Source of the DNA: a virus
IMG/VR virus record: IMGVR_UViG_3300037635_000677
Location: 1 to 47,908 of that record
DNA: 47,908 nt
Strand: one strand, 5' to 3'
Shown here: in pieces, positions 3,071 through 28,292 of the stretch
How the letters are laid out: every line of letters starts with the position of its first letter
Numbering within the stretch: position 1 is the first letter of the stretch
Position numbers and translations under genes: made by a program
The notes under the pieces: generated by a model
What the model was told of the DNA's origin: nothing
Seen by the model: the letters and a program-made list of their open reading frames with translations, nothing else
Database searches by the model: none

Positions 3071-3462
3071 TGGCTTTCAGAGATACACTGATCGCAGACC
3101 TAACAACTACTCTAAGTGGCAGTAATGTGTCAGTTAGTGCAGAATTACCCTTTGTACAAAGTGGTGATGTTAGATTGGATATAAAGAATAAAAAAACTTT
3201 GTATATTGATCAGGACAACGTTAGCAAAGAGGTGTTGTATAACACACTCGATGCTGATGTGTATCAAACAGTAACTACAGTGAAAGGATATCTAACTGTA
3301 GATGCCAAAAATCAACCTGGTGACATAGATAGTGTTACAAACAGTATCCGTGAAGCAAGGTTGGGAATAACTGGTCCATACTCAAAAGAGTGTGAGACCT
3401 CAACCGAAATCACAACAGATTATATAACATATGAGTTTGATTTCGAGTTTATAACTGTATAA
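3070..3462 (+). CDS. Tail completion / minor tail protein (copy A)
   Basis: This 130-aa protein lies between connector and tail tube, the place of gpU/gp10-type tail-terminator proteins. The sequence starts MAFRDTLIADLTTTLSGS and is followed by predicted beta strands (VSVSAELPF, LYIDQDNVSK, YEFDFEFITV at the C-terminus), consistent with a small alpha/beta terminator fold. Translation is coupled to the upstream gene by TAATG overlap. Copy B is about 90% identical. The name is a positional inference. Confidence 0.6.
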   Translation: MAFRDTLIADLTTTLSGSNVSVSAELPFVQSGDVRLDIKNKKTLYIDQDNVSKEVLYNTLDADVYQTVTTVKGYLTVDAKNQPGDIDSVTNSIREARLGITGPYSKECETSTEITTDYITYEFDFEFITV

Positions 3463-3478
3463 CAAATAGGAGAAACCG

Positions 3479-3964
3479 ATGGCAGTAATTAACGTAACAG
3501 CAGGTTCACAAGCAATTTTAACATTAGGATCAAACGCCGCATTGGCAGTACCAGGTGCTACCGATAGTTTGAGCATTCCTTTTTTACAAGACCTAACTAT
3601 TTCATCAGCACCCGGAACTGTTAGATATTCTACATTGGATTCTAGTAGTTCTAGTGCTTTCACAACTGTGAATGAGAATAGTGTTTCTTGTAACATGTTA
3701 GTGGATGACGTAGTGATGTTTGGAGATTCAGGTCATGCTGTAAATGGTGTAAAAACCAATGGTTTATTTGAAACTTCAAAAGCAAAAACAGAGATATTCT
3801 TCTCAGTTAGTTTTGAAGGAACAGGTACAACCGGCGATACATATTGGACAGGTAAAGGGTTTATCGGTGGATTAGCCCCTAACGCAAGTATCGACCAAGC
3901 AGTATGGATTTCCCCAATGGAAATCATTGTGAATGGTGAACTTACTAAGACAGACGAATCGTAA
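3479..3964 (+). CDS. Major tail (tube) protein (copy A)
   Basis: This 161-aa, beta-rich, Gly/Ser/Thr-rich protein has the size and composition of tail-tube subunits. It sits between the tail completion gene and the assembly chaperones. A strong AATAGGAG site precedes the ATG. The motif GTVRYSTLDSSSSSAFTTV (residues ~44-62) is invariant between copies. The C-terminal strand IDQAVWISPMEIIVNGELTK is typical of tube proteins. Copy B is about 65% identical. A stem-loop follows immediately (3981-4000) and may help keep this gene's expression above that of the downstream genes. Confidence 0.78.
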   Translation: MAVINVTAGSQAILTLGSNAALAVPGATDSLSIPFLQDLTISSAPGTVRYSTLDSSSSSAFTTVNENSVSCNMLVDDVVMFGDSGHAVNGVKTNGLFETSKAKTEIFFSVSFEGTGTTGDTYWTGKGFIGGLAPNASIDQAVWISPMEIIVNGELTKTDES

Positions 3965-9309: not shown

Positions 9310-11655
9310 ATGGCAGTATTTACAGCAATAGCAAGTGCGATAGTTGGAGCAATATCAGGTATTGGTTTTACAGCCGCACTAGCCGCCGCAGGTACATTCA
9401 CACTAACAGGTATGGCAATTGGTGTTATAGCCGCAGGCTTGGCCTTTGGTACTGCTAAATTAATGGGTGTGTTCGATGTTCCCGATATGGGACCAGACCC
9501 CGGGACTAAAATACAGGTGGCCCCGAGTACTGACAACAGGATAGGGGTTGCTTATGGCCGTAATTTCATGAGTGGTCCAATAACAGATGTTGCTATATCA
9601 AATCAAAACGAGACTATGCACTATTGTATCACATTAAGTGAATTTGTAGAAGGCGAAACATATACACTTAATCAGATCTTTTGGGGAGATAGAAAACTTA
9701 ACTTTTCAGGCGCAAATGTAATCAGTTACACAGATCCAAATGCCACAACCACAGAAGATTGGGCGAACAAAATCCGTATCAGAGTATATGCTGGTGATAC
9801 AACCAGTGCTAAACAGATATTTCCAACATCTGGTGCCGTAAATGCCACAACAATGATGCCACACTGGAATACATTTGGTACAAGTCATTACACTATGGAA
9901 GGATTAGTGTTTGTCATGATAGAATTAGACTATGATGCTGAAAATGGATTAGCAGGTCTAGGTTCAATGACGTTTGATCTTACAAACAGTATGCATAATC
10001 CTGGTGAAGTGTTATTTGATTATATGACTAACACTAGGTATGGTGCTGGATTAGCCAATGCTGACATTGATATAACCAGTATATTAGGCACAGCAAATAC
10101 ACAAATGAAAGGTTATTGCGATGAACAAATTACTTATACACCTAATACTGGTGGTAGTAGCACAATAGATCGATATCAAATAAATGGATATTTAAGTACA
10201 TACAACACTTGTATGGATAACATCGATGATATATGTAGAAACGCAGGCACATACTTTACATTTGATGGTAAACAGGGTAAATTCAAAGCAATACCTAACA
10301 GACCTTATAGTACAACTGAATTAAGTAACGCATTTCAATTAAATGATGATAATCTTATTGGTAAAATAGCAATTACAAGCACAGAATTATACAATACACT
10401 GAACAAAGTAACAGTATCGTTTGCTGATCAAAACAGAAAAGATCAAACAAATACAGTAGTAGTAGAAACACCAAGTGGCGATAGAAACACAGGTGAACCA
10501 GACAACAATTTAGAGTATAGATTACCATTAGTGAACAACAATATACACGCACAACAATTAGGTAATTTAGATCTCAATCAAAGTAGAAAAGGCATGGTAG
10601 TAACTACTGTAGGAGATTTCAGTTGTTTACAAATTGATGCTGGTGATGTTGTAAAACTCAGTAACAGTGATTATGGTTTTACTGACAAACTGTTTAGAGT
10701 CATGAAAAACAAAGAACTATTAGGTCAAGATGGTATGATATCTTGTGAATTACTATTGTTAGAGTATGACGCAAGTGTATACACAGAACCAACAGTAACA
10801 GAAAGTGAAGAAGAAGATGATCCTATTGATATACCTGTAATACCACCTATACCTCCAATTATACCTCCAATTGTGTTTAAAAACATAATCGCAAATGTGT
10901 CAAGCAAAAGTGTAACAGGCACCGGTACAAGTTGTGTGTGTACAGTATTTAAATCATTGCCAAATACATATACAACAGTATTTGTATCAAGTAGCACACC
11001 TGATTTTGTCATAGGCGATACAGTAACATTAAGTGGAGCCAACTTAGGAGGCATAGATACTATACATGATTGCACATTCACTGTTGATGCAGTCAGTAGT
11101 GGACTAATTACTAACCCAGTAGGAAACATATCAGGTACAGCACTTGTATATGATCCCGACAAATGGGGCGGACAAATTCCAACAGCACCGTTGGCCAACT
11201 TGGCAGTAGGCACACAGATCGAAGATCAACCAGCAGCCAACTTAGCATTCAGTAACACAGATGTTGTTAAAGATATATTTACACCTAGGGAACTAGACTT
11301 TAAATTAAGCCTAGATGGTTTAGAACCAGGAGACTACAGTTTTGTAGCAACTGGCACGCCAGTAGGAGCAATACCAGCCAGTGGTGTAGCAAACTTTAGT
11401 TTGAGAGCAAATGTTGTGCTTGAAGATGTACAAGGTGGCTTTACAGCAACAGAATTTGGTTCAACACTTAACAATAGTGCCGAAATACCTACTAACATGA
11501 TAGCAGTACAAAAATTAACTATACCTGCAGATTTAAGCACAGGTAATGTGGTATTGCGTGGTAAAAACACAATGGACACAAACAGTGGCGGACAAATAGG
11601 TTTTACTAATTTAAAATATGACTGGATAAGAATCAATAAAGGAGACATATTCTAA
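9310..11655 (+). CDS. Central tail tip protein, gpJ-like (copy A)
   Basis: This 781-aa protein begins with a hydrophobic Ala/Gly-rich segment (residues ~4-55) and then VAPSTDNRIGVAYGRNFMSGPITDV, typical of gpJ/phage-tail_3 tip proteins. The middle (YDAENGLAGLGSMTF, GEVLFDYMTNTRYGAGL, NTCMDNIDDICRNAG) matches the tip hub domains. A proline linker, DIPVIPPIPPIIPPIV (~residue 505-520), introduces a variable beta-rich C-terminal part. Copy B is ~82% identical before the linker, ~98% just after it, and identical from base 11099 on. A TAGGAG site precedes ATG. It probably contacts the receptor or anchors the fibre. Confidence 0.85.
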   Translation: MAVFTAIASAIVGAISGIGFTAALAAAGTFTLTGMAIGVIAAGLAFGTAKLMGVFDVPDMGPDPGTKIQVAPSTDNRIGVAYGRNFMSGPITDVAISNQNETMHYCITLSEFVEGETYTLNQIFWGDRKLNFSGANVISYTDPNATTTEDWANKIRIRVYAGDTTSAKQIFPTSGAVNATTMMPHWNTFGTSHYTMEGLVFVMIELDYDAENGLAGLGSMTFDLTNSMHNPGEVLFDYMTNTRYGAGLANADIDITSILGTANTQMKGYCDEQITYTPNTGGSSTIDRYQINGYLSTYNTCMDNIDDICRNAGTYFTFDGKQGKFKAIPNRPYSTTELSNAFQLNDDNLIGKIAITSTELYNTLNKVTVSFADQNRKDQTNTVVVETPSGDRNTGEPDNNLEYRLPLVNNNIHAQQLGNLDLNQSRKGMVVTTVGDFSCLQIDAGDVVKLSNSDYGFTDKLFRVMKNKELLGQDGMISCELLLLEYDASVYTEPTVTESEEEDDPIDIPVIPPIPPIIPPIVFKNIIANVSSKSVTGTGTSCVCTVFKSLPNTYTTVFVSSSTPDFVIGDTVTLSGANLGGIDTIHDCTFTVDAVSSGLITNPVGNISGTALVYDPDKWGGQIPTAPLANLAVGTQIEDQPAANLAFSNTDVVKDIFTPRELDFKLSLDGLEPGDYSFVATGTPVGAIPASGVANFSLRANVVLEDVQGGFTATEFGSTLNNSAEIPTNMIAVQKLTIPADLSTGNVVLRGKNTMDTNSGGQIGFTNLKYDWIRINKGDIF

Positions 11656-12059: not shown

Positions 12060-12067
12060 GATAAATA
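12060..12067 (+). promoter_or_regulatory. GATAAATA late-promoter-like motif before the fibre block (copy A)
   Basis: GATAAATA lies just after the tail_APC stop and 62 nt before the next ATG. It resembles the T4-family late promoter TATAAATA. The same octamer recurs upstream of the candidate sRNA, terS, terL and the portal. No -35 element is apparent. Confidence 0.5.
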
Positions 12068-20398: not shown

Positions 20399-20746
20399 AT
20401 GGACCAAAAAACCAAAGACCTTGTCAAAGAGGCAAACAAATTTATATCACAATTAACAATCAAGAACCACATTGTATACCAGGTTAGGACGCACATAGAC
20501 CGTGTGTGTGCAACGGGAGAAGGTGTAGAGGTACTTGAACACTTCGTAAACTTTTATAGCACTAACAAAGAGAAGTATTCTAGAGATAGGCACAACAAGA
20601 AACTATTGAGATTATACTATTTCAATAACATGATAATAGATGCTAATCAAATACAGTATGAATACTATCACAAAGCAAATAGGCACAATGAGTGGACTAA
20701 AGTAAAGAAAATTACTCACAACAACAGACCAAATTACAAGAATTAG
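20399..20746 (+). CDS. 115-aa basic protein, unknown
   Basis: This is a Lys/Asn/Tyr-rich helical protein (MDQKTKDLVKEANKFI ... HNNRPNYKN) with no recognised motif. The start has no clear Shine-Dalgarno. The upstream sequence reads GCGTAAATATTTACATG, containing a short inverted repeat GTAAATATTTAC that could mask or mark the start. It is the last gene of the late block. The GATAAATA motif begins on its final stop base. In copy B only the first 158 bases (47751-47908) lie in the window. Confidence 0.65.
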   Translation: MDQKTKDLVKEANKFISQLTIKNHIVYQVRTHIDRVCATGEGVEVLEHFVNFYSTNKEKYSRDRHNKKLLRLYYFNNMIIDANQIQYEYYHKANRHNEWTKVKKITHNNRPNYKN

Positions 20747-20753
20747 ATAAATA
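20746..20753 (+). promoter_or_regulatory. GATAAATA late-promoter-like motif before the candidate sRNA
   Basis: The octamer directly abuts the stop of the preceding gene. With T4-like late promoter geometry, transcription would begin near 20759-20761, exactly where the first stem of the candidate RNA starts. Confidence 0.5.
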
Positions 20754-20969
20754 ATATTGCATTAAGATAATTCTTTGAATAATGTTAATGCCATTTTATT
20801 ATAGATAATATATGTTTAGTAACATATACGGTGTAAACACTCGTTTGCACTTCATATGCCTTAATGTTGCCAAACACTGACACTAAACACTTATATTTGA
20901 CGTAGTAAATTTCCTAAAATATCGTAAAACTAAACCCCCTATTTACTCATCTTTATAGGGGGTTTTTTT
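20754..20969 (+). ncRNA. Candidate structured small RNA (~210 nt) with intrinsic terminator
   Basis: There is no ORF with a Shine-Dalgarno here. Stems that I can draw are: H1 GCATTAA (20759-20765) with TTAATGC (20785-20791), enclosing ATTC/GAAT (20770-20773/20777-20780); H2 TATATGTT (20809-20816) with AACATATA (20821-20828), loop TAGT; H3 GTGTAAAC (20831-20838) with GTTTGCAC (20843-20850), loop ACTC, one G-U pair; then a single-stranded stretch of ~85 nt; then the terminator hairpin 20935-20962 with seven Ts. The promoter-like motif, three consecutive perfect or near-perfect hairpins and the terminator together suggest a discrete transcript. No known RNA family was recognised. Only one copy is in the window. 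Confidence 0.5.
20935..20969 (+). terminator. Strong intrinsic terminator at the end of the late block
   Basis: CCCCCTAT (20935-20942) pairs with ATAGGGGG (20955-20962), followed by TTTTTTT (20963-20969). Upstream AAA can extend the stem. It ends the late structural transcript and the candidate small RNA before the terminase region. Confidence 0.93.
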
Positions 20970-21478
20970 ACCTCGAGTGATAAGTATATGTGTAAGGCAA
21001 ATACATTATGGCAAAACTCAGAACCCTAAAAACAAACAGAACATAAGACTGACCATCAGATATACAGGTTGAGAAAAAGGCGGCGATTTTGGTACCCGCA
21101 CTCTATGAGGATTATTCTGTTATCCGCAAACACAATAGTTCATAAACAATATATGTACAGAGAACGAAGCATATACTAGGCCTTGGCAGGTGTGGAGTGA
21201 GCAAGAGATCCATTGAACTGTGAGTAAATACCTGCTTCCAATACATGGCTGTACACAATGAATACAGAATGAGGAGGGAACCGTTAGTGGTTCCTTCTGA
21301 CTGAAACTTCTAAAACAGAATGTAAGAAAGAAAACTTTTCACGAAACAACTCCACGAAGTGGTTGTGAAGTGAATAGGTCTTTAGACCTTTTATAATATA
21401 CATATTCTTTATAATGGTTCAAACGAACTCTCTTAACAGTTTACATATGGATTATTATGGGTAAAATATGTAAGAGAT
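20970..21478 (+). other. Non-coding block upstream of terS (candidate cos/pac, origin or structured RNA)
   Basis: About 509 nt with no convincing ORF on either strand. Structure seen: TATATG/CATATA (21150-21155/21170-21175); GGCAGGT (21185-21191) with ACCTGCT (21230-21236); a ~10-bp hairpin centred on GGAACC...GGTTCC (21273-21298); a bulged hairpin CCAC-GAA-GTGG (21353-21363) inside a TTTCAC/GTGAA stem; and AGGTC-TTTA-GACCT followed by TTT (21376-21392), which is weakly terminator-like. Its place immediately upstream of the terminase small subunit is where cos sites lie in lambda-like phages. I cannot tell which of these roles applies. Confidence 0.4.
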
Positions 21479-21536: not shown

Positions 21537-22007
21537 ATGTCAACTGAACATGAAGACTTTTCAGATAGTAAACCATTAACGCCAGAGAACCAAAGTGAAG
21601 GTTCAAAAGTACACCAAGAAGCCACCAAACATGATAACCATTATCGTGTAAAACAAGTCAAGTACGGCGAAAAAACTGTCACAGGCAGAGTTATAGGTCG
21701 TAACAAAGTGGTTATACCAGAAGAAGAAGTAGCACAACTCAGTCAATATCACTGCACAAACAAAGAAATGGCAGACTTTTATGGGGTGCCCTTACAAACC
21801 TTTATGGACAACTTCCGTGATATCATAGACAAAAACAGAATCATAACAAAACAGAGATTGCGTAAAGCACAATTAGACCTAGCACTCAAAGGCGATAGAG
21901 TGATGTTGATATGGCTAGGCAAAAACATACTAGGACAAGCAGAGTCACCTGTAAACGCCGATAACAGTCAAGTGTTGCCATGGCTAGACGAAGACGCCGA
22001 TAAATAA
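21537..22007 (+). CDS. Terminase small subunit
   Basis: This 156-aa protein recognises the packaging site and recruits the large subunit. The N-terminal ~60 residues are charged and probably flexible. Residues ~66-95 (EEEVAQLSQYHCTNKEMADFYGVPLQTFMDNF) are a helix-turn-helix of the terminase-small type. The following KQRLRKAQLDLALKGDRVMLIWLGKNILGQ is the oligomerisation segment often seen in TerS proteins. A strong AGGAG site precedes the ATG. terL follows after 113 nt of structured sequence. Only one copy exists in the window, unlike the head-tail genes. Confidence 0.88.
   Translation: MSTEHEDFSDSKPLTPENQSEGSKVHQEATKHDNHYRVKQVKYGEKTVTGRVIGRNKVVIPEEEVAQLSQYHCTNKEMADFYGVPLQTFMDNFRDIIDKNRIITKQRLRKAQLDLALKGDRVMLIWLGKNILGQAESPVNADNSQVLPWLDEDADK
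21999..22006 (+). promoter_or_regulatory. GATAAATA motif overlapping the terS stop, before terL
   Basis: The motif covers the last codons and stop of terS (GCC GAT AAA TAA), so its bases are partly fixed by coding. It lies 4 nt before the 12-bp inverted repeat and ~115 nt before terL. It may be a promoter for terL and the structured leader. Confidence 0.42.
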
Positions 22008-22095: not shown

Positions 22096-22120
22096 CTTAA
22101 ATAGATTTACAGTATACGAT

Positions 22121-23359
22121 ATGAAGTTAACCGAACCACAAAACACTATCTCAAACGATTCTGCACGTTTCCGTGTGATTGTAGCAGGTAGACGTTTTGG
22201 CAAAACATTCTTGGCAATCAACGAATTAGCCAAATTTGCTCGTTATCCTAATCAAAAATGCTTGTACATTGCAACCACATACCGCCAAGCAAAAGGTGTG
22301 ATATGGGATGATTTGTTACAGTTACTATACGAAAAGAATTGGGTAAAGAAAGTAAACCTATCAGACTTAACAGTAACACTGGTTAATGATAGTATTATAA
22401 CCTTGCGTAGTAGTGATAACAATACAGCACTAAGAGGTACTAAGTGGAATTTTATTTCACTCGATGAGTATGCCAGTATGGATCCTAGCACATGGGACAG
22501 TATACTGAGACCCACACTCAGTGATACACAAGGACATGCTATGTTTATTGGTACACCATATGGTAGAAATCACTTTTGGGATCTATACAATAATGCTAAC
22601 ACTCTAGATGATTGGAGCAGTTATCAGTTTACAACAGCAGAAGGTGGCAATGTAGCACCAGAAGAAATAGAGGCGGCAAAAAGAGATATGGCAGAAAGAG
22701 AATTTAACCAAGAATACAACGCAACATTCGAAGATGCGGCAGGCATAATTGCGTATGCATTCTCACAAGACAATGTAAAAACAGCACCACAGTTATCGGC
22801 TAGCAACGCACTACACATAGGAATGGACTTTAACACAGATAACTTTGCCGCCTGTGTAATGTTACAAGACCGTGATACATTACACATAATAGATGAAATC
22901 ATGCTAATGGGCGCCAGCACCGGCGATATGTGTAAAGAAATACAGCAAAGATATGGCAGGAGAATCATATTTGTATATCCAGATGCTTCAGGTTCACAAC
23001 GTAAGACCAGTGCTAATGGTATGACCGACCACCTTATACTACATAACGCAGGATTCAAAGTGCGTACACCTAAAACCAATCCACCAGTTAAAGATGCTAT
23101 TGCGGCAGTAAATAGTAGGTTGCGTAGTACAAATGGAGACATAAAGTTATTCATAGACCCACAATGCAAGAACACACTGGCCAGTATGAACAAGTTTACA
23201 TACAAAGAAGGCAGTCGTGTGCCAGATAAGAGTTCAGGATATGATCACATGTTTGACGCACTTAAATATTGTGTATGGCAGTTATTCCCATTACAACAAA
23301 TGCGTTTTGACACATTGCCAGGAAATAGATTTAGAAGTACAGGAGTAAGACCAAGATGA
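22121..23359 (+). CDS. Terminase large subunit (ATPase-nuclease)
   Basis: This 412-aa protein is the packaging motor that translocates DNA into the procapsid and cuts it. The ATPase half has Walker A GRRFGKT (residues 23-29), Walker B FISLDE (111-116, catalytic E116) and the coupling motif FIGTP (142-146). The nuclease half has an RNase H-like core starting GMDFN (D236), then IFVYPDASG and a C-terminal GYDHMFDALKY with the last acidic residue. The start lacks a clear Shine-Dalgarno, so translation may depend on the structured leader. The stop overlaps the next gene by 4 nt (ATGA). Single copy. Confidence 0.95.
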   Translation: MKLTEPQNTISNDSARFRVIVAGRRFGKTFLAINELAKFARYPNQKCLYIATTYRQAKGVIWDDLLQLLYEKNWVKKVNLSDLTVTLVNDSIITLRSSDNNTALRGTKWNFISLDEYASMDPSTWDSILRPTLSDTQGHAMFIGTPYGRNHFWDLYNNANTLDDWSSYQFTTAEGGNVAPEEIEAAKRDMAEREFNQEYNATFEDAAGIIAYAFSQDNVKTAPQLSASNALHIGMDFNTDNFAACVMLQDRDTLHIIDEIMLMGASTGDMCKEIQQRYGRRIIFVYPDASGSQRKTSANGMTDHLILHNAGFKVRTPKTNPPVKDAIAAVNSRLRSTNGDIKLFIDPQCKNTLASMNKFTYKEGSRVPDKSSGYDHMFDALKYCVWQLFPLQQMRFDTLPGNRFRSTGVRPR

Positions 23360-25259: not shown

Positions 25260-25626
25260 CGTATTGATCCATATATGTGCTAGCCATTTTGATGTAAAAC
25301 ATTTTTGGGTTCACTGTCCAGTGTTCGCCACGTTCGTTAAGTATTTTACCTTGTAATTCTGGTTTTTCGAAGTTGCTGTAATATATGTCACCATATAAGT
25401 ATTCACGTCTTGCAACTGTGATAGGATGTATGCCTAAGTCTATTGCAAGTTGCCCCAGTGTTTTGCCATACTTGGTTTCAAATTTAGTCGGTTTATTTCT
25501 TCTTTGAAACGGTGTGCCAAAGTTACGCACACGCATACGGATTGCTTCTGGTGTGACATTCTCCATTTCTGCTAAGTCATTGCAGGCTATTCCCCATTTT
25601 TCTTTAAAATCTACTCTTTGTTTCAT
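25240..25626 (-). CDS. Tandem helix-turn-helix DNA-binding protein (putative regulator)
   Basis: This 128-aa protein has its start at MKQRVDFKEKWG, 6 nt after AAGGAG. An in-frame ATG further upstream (25674) has no such site. It has two similar units: KWGIACNDLAEMENVTPEAI followed by RMRVRNFGTPFQRR, and KYGKTLGQLAIDLGIHPITVARREY. Each looks like a recognition-helix HTH. The C-terminal ~45 residues are unassigned. Its location in the only leftward operon, which has a sigma70-like promoter, fits an early regulator. Other possibilities are a packaging-site or origin-binding protein. Confidence 0.7.
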   Translation of the reverse strand: MKQRVDFKEKWGIACNDLAEMENVTPEAIRMRVRNFGTPFQRRNKPTKFETKYGKTLGQLAIDLGIHPITVARREYLYGDIYYSNFEKPELQGKILNERGEHWTVNPKMFYIKMASTYMDQYDENKKA

Positions 25627-26039
25627 TATATCTCCTTGAAAATTAAATCTGGCGCAAAGATAGTCTCTGGCCATTTGTTAGCAATCAATAACTTGTTTAT
25701 GTTATCGAAAGCACCTAAAAGTTCTTCTATGTTTTTGATTTGGTATACTGTAAAGTCTTTGTCTTTGGTTTTCTTATGTTGTTTCAGCATGCCGCCTAAT
25801 GCGGCAGTTATACCTATATACTTGCTTCTTTTATAGTATTTGCCTTTGCCTAAACACTTGAACTCTGTGGTAACAAAAGTGTTTAACTCTGGGTATTCGT
25901 GTTGTGCTTCTGCTATGATGTATAGTGCGTCTTGCAATATGTTTAGGAGTAATTGCTTGTCGTCTTTGGACATTTTACAAAATACAGTATTGATCTCTGA
26001 CTTTGTAAATGCTTTACTCCAGTTTATTGTGTAACTCAT
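25626..26039 (-). CDS. 137-aa protein of the leftward operon, unknown
   Basis: A helical Lys-rich protein (SYTINWSKAFTKSEINTVF ... ETIFAPDLIFKEI). The central part TTEFKCLGKGKYYKRSKYIGITAALGG is basic and could bind nucleic acid. No motif was recognised. It has an AAGGAG site, the stop overlaps the next ATG by one base (TAATG), and a GATAAATA motif lies 25 nt upstream. Confidence 0.72.
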   Translation of the reverse strand: MSYTINWSKAFTKSEINTVFCKMSKDDKQLLLNILQDALYIIAEAQHEYPELNTFVTTEFKCLGKGKYYKRSKYIGITAALGGMLKQHKKTKDKDFTVYQIKNIEELLGAFDNINKLLIANKWPETIFAPDLIFKEI

Positions 26040-26063
26040 CTTATTCTCCTTATCGTATACATT

Positions 26064-26369: not shown

Positions 26370-26522
26370 ACTCTGTTTTACATCTAGAGTAGGTTTGTTA
26401 GGACAAGCCACATTTACTTAGTCACAGGGGTATGCAACTGTAAATAATATTGAAGTAAACGCATAAGGCGTTCACTCATATAACTAAGTGTGTTTGCTTT
26501 TATTCATTGAATAAAAGTATTG
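26370..26522. promoter_or_regulatory. Intergenic control region upstream of the portal with inverted repeats
   Basis: There is no ORF. It contains ACTTAGT (26416-26422) with ACTAAGT (26483-26489), a small AACGC/GCGTT hairpin around 26459-26473, and a near-perfect 21-bp palindrome at 26497-26517 (CTTTTATTCA-T-TGAATAAAAG). The palindrome has the size and symmetry of an operator for a dimeric repressor. The HTH protein of the neighbouring leftward operon is a candidate ligand (inference). Confidence 0.45.
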
Positions 26523-26546
26523 AAAGGCCCCCAACTGGGGGTTTTT
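26523..26546 (+). terminator. Intrinsic terminator just upstream of the portal promoter
   Basis: CCCCC (26528-26532), loop AACT, GGGGG (26537-26541), then TTTTT (26542-26546). An upstream AAAGG extends pairing. It stops rightward transcription before the portal transcript begins at the following GATAAATA motif. Confidence 0.88.
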
Positions 26547-26558
26547 CATATATATTTT

Positions 26559-26566
26559 GATAAATA
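26559..26566 (+). promoter_or_regulatory. GATAAATA late-promoter-like motif before the portal
   Basis: The motif sits 13 nt after a terminator and 38 nt before the portal start. The implied leader begins with the palindrome CTTGTTATAACAAG (26569-26582), a potential 5' hairpin. This is the clearest promoter context of the set because transcription must restart here. Confidence 0.55.
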
Positions 26567-26603
26567 CTCTTGTTATAACAAGCAATATAAACCGGAGATA
26601 TCT

Positions 26604-28292
26604 TTGAGTGATTATCTAAACTATATCACAGGTACCCACGCATTGTACGACAAGTACTATGCCGATTGGAGACTGTGTATCAATTCATACCATGGTGGGC
26701 CAGAATATAAAGATGCCCATTATCTAAGAGCATATCAAGTAGACTTTAACACCCCGAGTGAAATGGTTAACACATATGAAACAGCAGATGACGGTTCATA
26801 TGTGGCAAAATTCAAAGCCAAAGTAGTACAGGGTTCCACGTACAACGAAACTGTGAGAGGCCAAAACAAATTGTCGGGCAGTTTCTATGAAGAAAAGTTA
26901 GACTCAGTGCCATGGTATAACTATGTTAAGTTAATCACTAACGAATACAACTCGATCTTATTCCGTAATCCACCACAAAGAATGCTAGGTGAAAACGCAG
27001 ATATGTCAGAGTTTATAGAAAATGTAGACGGTGAAGGCAATTCATTAAGTGAATTCATGAGTCAGGTAGATGTGCTCACTACTGTATATGGAGTTTTACA
27101 TATTGGATGCTACAAGCCAGTTGGATCAGATATACCTAAATTCAAAATACATACACCTGAAGATGTAACAAATTGGAGTTATCAATATAATCCAGATGGC
27201 AGTTTAACATTAGACAGCATGGTAATTAGGGTTGAATATTCAGACTATCATAGTGTGTACAGAGTATTAACCAGAGATTATATCGATACCATATTTGTTA
27301 AAAATGATAGTTCAGATGATGATTATCTACCACCTGTACAATCAGATGATTTAGAAATGATAGAAGAAGGCACATATCGTATAAGGCAAGAAAATGAATT
27401 AGGTTACATACCAGTAACAACAGTATACCAAAATGTAAAAGTGTATAACAACGTTGGTTCAACAATTATTATGGATGTTGCACAAATACAACGTAGTGTA
27501 TACGGCGACAATGCTGAAATATATAGTGCTATCACATATGGTGCTCATCCTACACTCATAGTAGATGAAAACACCGACGCACTTAATGACGGTCAAGTAA
27601 ACGCAGAGCCAGGTGGCATAGTGCGAGTGCAAGGTGGCCTAACAGGTGATCAACAAAATTATGTATATCAGTTTGCTTCACCTAGTCTAGATGCTATCAC
27701 AGAAATACGTGATTTGATAGACAACAAAATAAACAAATTAACACAAATTGCTATGTTAAGATCAGAAGACTTAATCAAAGCAAGTAACAGTGGCGAACAA
27801 ATAGAAATATTCGACGATAAACTTGCCGCACTGATCCGTAAGAAAGCCACAAACTTAGAAAATACAGAAAGCAAACTGTTTGATATCTATTTTGATTGGA
27901 CAAACCAACAAAAGCCAGATGATTTCCGTGTAAGTTACAGCAGACAATACAACAAAAGAGCATTAGAGGCAGAATTAAAAGAAATAGATGTTTTAATCAA
28001 TGTTGTAAACAAATATGAAGAAATGTTTGGTAATGGTGACATAGAAGCACCAAGTTACAACACAGAAGCAGAAGCAATAGCAGAAGCAAATAGATTAGGA
28101 GGAACTGGCGCACACGAGCACGTTCAAGAAGATGGTAGTAGTATATACATGCCATTTGAAACACATGAATTATATGAGGCGGCTATCGGACAGACAGCCT
28201 CGGAACCAGATTTTAAAAACAATATGCGAGACAAGATACGCATGAGACTTGAAGAGTTAATGTCTAGTACATCAACTAACAAAGGTCTCTAA
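26604..28292 (+). CDS. Portal protein (copy B, complete)
   Basis: 562 aa from a TTG start (MSDYLNYITG...), chosen because GGAG lies 6 nt upstream. The in-frame ATG at 26520 would run through the terminator hairpin. The long alpha/beta protein has the layout of DUF4055/SPP1-type portals: N-terminal wing (LNYITGTHALYDKYY, KLSGSFYEEKLDSVPWYNY), ITNEYNSILFRNPP, the stem region ASPSLDAITEIRDLIDNKIN, and a charged helical C-terminal crown with EAEAIAEANRLGG. The last ~195 residues correspond to the fragment at 3-593. Upstream sequence (terminator, promoter) is unique, so only one full portal start is visible. Confidence 0.87.
   Translation: MSDYLNYITGTHALYDKYYADWRLCINSYHGGPEYKDAHYLRAYQVDFNTPSEMVNTYETADDGSYVAKFKAKVVQGSTYNETVRGQNKLSGSFYEEKLDSVPWYNYVKLITNEYNSILFRNPPQRMLGENADMSEFIENVDGEGNSLSEFMSQVDVLTTVYGVLHIGCYKPVGSDIPKFKIHTPEDVTNWSYQYNPDGSLTLDSMVIRVEYSDYHSVYRVLTRDYIDTIFVKNDSSDDDYLPPVQSDDLEMIEEGTYRIRQENELGYIPVTTVYQNVKVYNNVGSTIIMDVAQIQRSVYGDNAEIYSAITYGAHPTLIVDENTDALNDGQVNAEPGGIVRVQGGLTGDQQNYVYQFASPSLDAITEIRDLIDNKINKLTQIAMLRSEDLIKASNSGEQIEIFDDKLAALIRKKATNLENTESKLFDIYFDWTNQQKPDDFRVSYSRQYNKRALEAELKEIDVLINVVNKYEEMFGNGDIEAPSYNTEAEAIAEANRLGGTGAHEHVQEDGSSIYMPFETHELYEAAIGQTASEPDFKNNMRDKIRMRLEELMSSTSTNKGL

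Follow-up and report, generated by a model that had tools for sequence, protein, structure and literature searches.

A putative stand-alone small-RNA gene and a second structured noncoding RNA upstream of the terminase genes of a 27-kb marine tailed phage

The packaging RNA of phage phi29 is a structured phage RNA. This packaging RNA is mentioned in PMC5823994. Several other described phage RNAs are antisense RNAs. According to PMC12197685, sar of P22 is a 68/69-nt antisense RNA directed against the ant mRNA, and OOP of lambda is a 77-nt RNA that is antisense to cII; the P1/P7-type c4 antisense RNA corresponds to the family RF01695 (listed in PMC2864571). In cyanophage S-PM2, CfrI is an antisense RNA of ~225 nt, and the late promoters of T4 and of S-PM2 are represented as TATAAATA and NATAAATA, respectively (PMC2984593). 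For uncultured marine phages, most small RNAs are still unknown. In this work, we describe a segment (A) that offers a promoter motif, a structure, a terminator, relatives and a concrete candidate target, together with a second RNA (B) that lies beside the terminase genes.

The window, that is, the whole stretch of DNA analysed here (47,908 bases), is a virus record in which a phage unit of ~27.35 kb is wound about 1.75 times in two genotypes. The copies at 1-20556 and 27697-47908 differ from each other, with 84.5% and 95% identity in two blocks and a divergent block between them, and the record has the appearance of two strains of a single phage joined in assembly. The genes recognised are those of a tailed phage: portal, major head protein, tape measure, J-like tail fibre and large terminase (terL). 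The 156-aa ORF at 21537 is taken as terS, because it is located upstream of terL and has a weak match to the terminase small subunit.

Segment A (20746-20970, plus strand) is flanked by the last late gene, a 115-aa ORF, and by the 156-aa ORF at 21537. It begins with the promoter-like sequence GATAAATA at 20746-20753, which overlaps the stop codon of the 115-aa ORF, and RNA A itself would extend from 20757 to 20970, the 5' end being approximate. Five bases after GATAAATA begins a 5' hairpin (20759-20791), whose arms GCATTAA and TTAATGC occupy 20759-20765 and 20785-20791; among the relatives described below, L001 retains this hairpin with a G-U change, and L025 and L035 have a comparable one. 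At the 3' end is an intrinsic terminator (20932-20969) with an 11-bp stem at 20932-20965, the loop ACTCATCTTT at 20945-20954 and a T run. These are the promoter motif, the adjoining stem and the textbook terminator that an initial annotation of this DNA had pointed out, and all were found at the positions given there. Its statement that A contains no ORF with a ribosome-binding site also holds in the window, and none is conserved among the nine copies of A.

The internal structure differs in part from that annotation, which had placed two 8-bp hairpins with 4-nt loops in A, followed by about 85 unpaired nucleotides. The hairpin sequences, TATATGTT/AACATATA and GTGTAAAC/GTTTGCAC, the latter with one U-G pair, are indeed present and have 4-nt loops. 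However, the first of them competes with a long-range helix, P1, which is energetically favoured and is also present in relatives. The arms of P1 (20814-20820 with 20882-20888) close a domain at 20814-20888, and in the minimum-energy fold this domain contains an inner hairpin (20823-20858) and the motif TTAATGTTGCC (also written UUAAUGUUGCC; 20861-20871). Within the supposedly unpaired stretch, bases of the 3' arm of P1 and some others are in fact paired, and in the same fold only about 22 nt before the terminator remain unpaired. This part includes the conserved tail TTTCCTAAAATATCGTA (20910-20926), which alignment, folds and complementarity suggest as an antisense seed.

When compared with shuffled sequences, the whole segment has a folding z score of -6.15, and of -4.4 without the promoter and the terminator; all nine copies of A without the terminator have z scores between -3.5 and -6.2. 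When the phage unit is scanned in 317 windows of 173 nt, structure is strongest at 20813-20985, in a window that takes in the terminator, and the window at 20727-20899, from which the terminator is excluded, ranks within the first seven. Other regions also fold strongly as single strands (z about -4.4 to -5.6), one at 3097-3699 within genes and another at 26403-26661 upstream of the portal gene.

A single MAFFT alignment of all copies of A fails, the lengths of the domains being different, and therefore P1 was tested in a simply alignable trio (L003, L010 and L038) and by swapping arms. In the trio, 27 of 27 cells are paired and three double changes are found; the sample consists of only these three sequences, and 22 of 500 shuffles reach the observed pairing. 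In the other copies, the arms of the same sequence pair fully and swapped arms pair to 54%, where the full pairing arises partly by construction, since the arms were picked for each sequence. Covariation in homologues had been named at the outset as a test that could refute the small RNA, and the compensatory changes in P1, in a small sample, are in its favour.

Related contigs, designated by L numbers, were gathered by protein-based and pattern scans. The cassette consisting of GATAAATA, a structured RNA and a terminator was found in eight related phage contigs besides the window. In six of them (L001, L003, L010, L013, L014 and L038) the terminator has the loop ACTCATCTTT or a variant of it, and in the other two, L025 (whose motif reads TATAAATA) and L035, it has a different stem. 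A terminator with the loop ACTCATCTTT also occurs in reverse orientation relative to B in L026 (5976) and L030 (3919). In seven relatives (L003, L010, L013, L014, L025, L035 and L038), a minus-strand gene separates the late operon from the cassette, so that the cassette needs its own promoter and is not merely a 3' untranslated region. We conclude that A is very probably a stand-alone small-RNA gene of ~210 nt, where conservation and structure are observed and transcription is inferred; the independent transcript of this length proposed in the initial annotation is thus supported.

In principle, A could be no more than the late transcript's structured 3' end with its terminator, preceded by a promoter-like motif that arose by chance, since in the window the motif shares bases with the stop codon of the 115-aa ORF and the last late gene is followed by the terminator. 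We consider this unlikely, because the seven relatives with the intervening gene still have the promoter motif at the 5' end of their cassette, and because the motif is enriched between genes (see below). The possibility that A codes for a short peptide is more remote and very improbable: there is a 22-codon ORF in the window and an ORF of 29-31 codons at the same place in L001, but these ORFs have no ribosome-binding site and no counterpart in L003, L010, L013, L014 and L038. The stand-alone RNA gene matches no known family, as previously noted: in a search of the window and its relatives against Rfam, neither c4 antisense RNA (RF01695) nor any other family reached its gathering score, and a relaxed search gave only sub-threshold matches. 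A search for DNA similarity among isolated phages gave no match.

The promoter-like motif can be generalised as GATAA[AG]TA, which resembles the late promoters of T4 and cyanophage S-PM2 (PMC2984593). There are seven sites per phage unit (window positions 12060, 20746, 20979, 21479, 21999 and 26559 on the plus strand and 26071 on the minus strand), and the midpoints of six of them are intergenic, whereas intergenic DNA makes up 8% of the unit (binomial p = 1.7e-6); the seventh coincides with the last codons of terS, ahead of terL. The motif precedes A, B, terS, terL, the portal gene and others, in the manner of a T4-type late-promoter element. The proteins scanned, which represent part of the ORFs and include several without a family, yielded no recognisable gp55-like sigma factor, nor were replication, RNA polymerase or sigma genes recognised in the 27-kb phage within this set. 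A late promoter motif similar to that of T4 is thus a notable feature of this phage.

For the function of A, the mechanism that we regard as most likely, with a confidence somewhat short of even, is the antisense regulation of a minus-strand gene of 137 aa (25626-26039); it is unproven and is deduced from complementarity. Through its unpaired tail, UUUCCUAAAAUAUCGUA, and the loop of its terminator, ACUCAUCUUU, A would base-pair with this gene at the ribosome-binding site and the start codon, AUAUCGUA and UUUCCU being the pairing elements on A. The proposed target, TACGATAAGGAG...AAGATGAGT at 26034-26057 on the minus strand, forms a predicted duplex of -12.3 kcal/mol, and pairing at UACGAUAAGGAG...AAGAUGAGU in the leader would block translation. 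By a pattern search, the start codon of terL (TACGATATG, or UACGAUAUG; 22115-22123, plus strand) is a possible second target.

Moderate support for this leader comes from several observations. The tail, UUUCCU(A)AAAUAUCGUA, is nearly invariant across six copies and unpaired in the folds, and a minus-strand gene of ~138 aa homologous to the target is shared by these phages. When the gene leaders of each phage are ranked by pairing with the tail, the leader of the target ranks 1 of 23 in L010, 1 of 10 in L038, 1 of 25 in L013 and 3 of 19 in L003, with shuffle p values of 0.001-0.11 per phage, where neither the ranks nor the p values are independent, because the phages, as well as their tails and leaders, are related. 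The 137-aa gene of the window was removed from this ranking by the ORF filter; with -12.3 kcal/mol, its leader would rank second. The leaders of terL score high in several phages. In addition, AAGATGAGT, which spans the start codon of the 137-aa gene, is complementary to the terminator loop and is the sole such site in the window besides A itself.

Other results speak against this model. In an unrestricted scan of the whole window, the leader of the 137-aa gene is not at the top, and in L035 (p = 0.19) and L025 (p = 0.18) the whole RNA does not pair significantly with the leader. Tails and leaders swapped between phages pair equally well in about half of the cases, so that co-evolution is not clear, and UUUCCU is a generic anti-Shine-Dalgarno sequence. 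Pairing of the motif AAUGUUGCC with phage messages was also considered and rejected: a 10-base match was seen by eye in L035, but the whole RNA is not significant there and the match is not general.

It is possible, with a lower probability, that A is a stand-alone small RNA which acts on host messages or on a protein, and that its match to the leader merely reflects an A/U-rich RNA with an anti-Shine-Dalgarno-like UUUCCU. The weak phage-by-phage specificity fits this alternative, as do other leaders of the window that score equally (e.g., -13.8 for the gene at 9310) and the action of some reviewed phage small RNAs on host RNAs (PMC12197685). It does not readily account for the same orthologous leader ranking 1-3 in several phages, or for a second element of A, the terminator loop, matching the same start site in the window. 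Taken jointly, a stand-alone small-RNA gene acting as an antisense regulator of a phage gene has, in our estimation, about an even chance.

The second structured noncoding RNA, B, is located between A and terS (~20979-21392). The promoter-like GATAAGTA, found by motif search at 20979-20986, precedes the RNA proper (20990-21392, plus strand; core 21035-21307), which ends in a hairpin AGGTCTTTAGACCT and a T run (21376-21392). B is defined by profile and covariance-model matches and by strong covariation. Its core was detected in 20 viral contigs by pattern and in more terminase relatives by profile or covariance model, giving ~25 distinct contigs in total, and [GT]ATAA[AG]TA occurs upstream in most loci. 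A terminase gene lies downstream of B wherever it is in reach (the available parts of L024 and L033 gave no terminase homologue), and the terminase proteins of the B-bearing phages share down to about 42% identity.

In an alignment based on sequence only, changes on both sides were found in 16 of 25 pairs of B, and the covariation score is 0.356, as compared with 0.167 for shuffles and at most 0.207 for slid structures, a control that somewhat favours the B structure, which was drawn from the same sequences. An alignment fitted to the model, which leans towards that model, gives 18 pairs and a score of 0.456. A separate 5' helix is retained with many G-U pairs (UG in 15 of 18 at one pair), which favours an RNA over a DNA structure. 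Folding of single sequences is no better than that of shuffles, so that the support for B is comparative only.

Other identities of B were rejected. Stops are present in nearly all frames, which argues against a coding function, and a group I intron, which the presence of an HNH gene and an overlapping small ORF had suggested, is not supported by any match to the Rfam group I family; B has no match in Rfam at all. The small ORF overlapping B has no match among isolated phages. In bacterial genomes, four stretches of metagenome-assembled genomes fit the pattern and none fits the model at E values up to 1. In L008, B and terS are separated by an HNH endonuclease gene (2249-2710), with similar ORFs in L025, L030, L032 and L035, and a methylase-like gene lies between terS and terL in L001 (2697-3524). 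In L003 (7040-7460) and L010 (4560-5060), another conserved noncoding core, possibly a third RNA type, takes the place of B and ends in the hairpin AGGTCTTTAGACCT. Since A thus stands beside a different core with the same terminal hairpin, A and B are separate modules.

The conserved noncoding stretch at 20746-21400 might instead be mainly a DNA element, such as a packaging or cos/pac site, upstream of terS. Its position directly ahead of terS, the adjacent HNH endonuclease gene in relatives and several contig ends within B are in line with such an element. On the other hand, the helices are maintained via G-U pairs, which a DNA hairpin does not favour, and promoter-like motifs and terminators flank both A and B. 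The contig ends are scattered over several hundred bases, too widely to prove that a cos site is present, and assemblies tend to break at conserved stretches in any case. We therefore regard a DNA element in place of RNA genes as quite improbable; a packaging site could nevertheless overlap the stretch of A and B. As an RNA, B may represent a new class, and a role in packaging, suggested by its position beside the terminase genes, is a guess. The wider proposal of two adjacent, undescribed phage RNA genes, in which B (270-400 nt) is a new class that accompanies the terminase genes throughout a divergent lineage of phages and acts in packaging or terminase control, is a speculative one to which we assign a low probability.

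A and B are not described in the available text of the metagenome structured-RNA paper (PMC2864571) or of the phage small-RNA paper (PMC12197685); their novelty is provisional, subscription literature and preprints being outside the search. A would belong to the phage regulatory small RNAs, an already known kind. By its proposed mode of action, it appears closest to P22 sar (PMC12197685): both are phage small RNAs, and in the model A pairs with a phage message where its translation is initiated. However, A is ~3 times longer than sar, strongly folded, encoded away from its proposed target and only partially complementary to it. Lambda OOP (PMC12197685) is likewise a short phage transcript with its own promoter and lowers the expression of a phage gene, as is proposed for A, but the gene for OOP lies opposite its target, to which OOP is perfectly complementary, and neither is true of A. 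The c4 antisense RNA (PMC2864571) is, like the proposed A, a structured phage antisense RNA, although RF01695 has no match in the window or its relatives. CfrI resembles A in its marine phage origin and its length, whereas it is antisense to a homing endonuclease gene and psbA and A is intergenic (PMC2984593). B can be compared with the phi29 packaging RNA in that both are structured phage RNAs and B adjoins packaging genes, a position that suggests its candidate role; unlike the phi29 RNA, it is found in phages with TerS and TerL. If confirmed, B would raise the question of RNA in packaging beyond the phi29 group.
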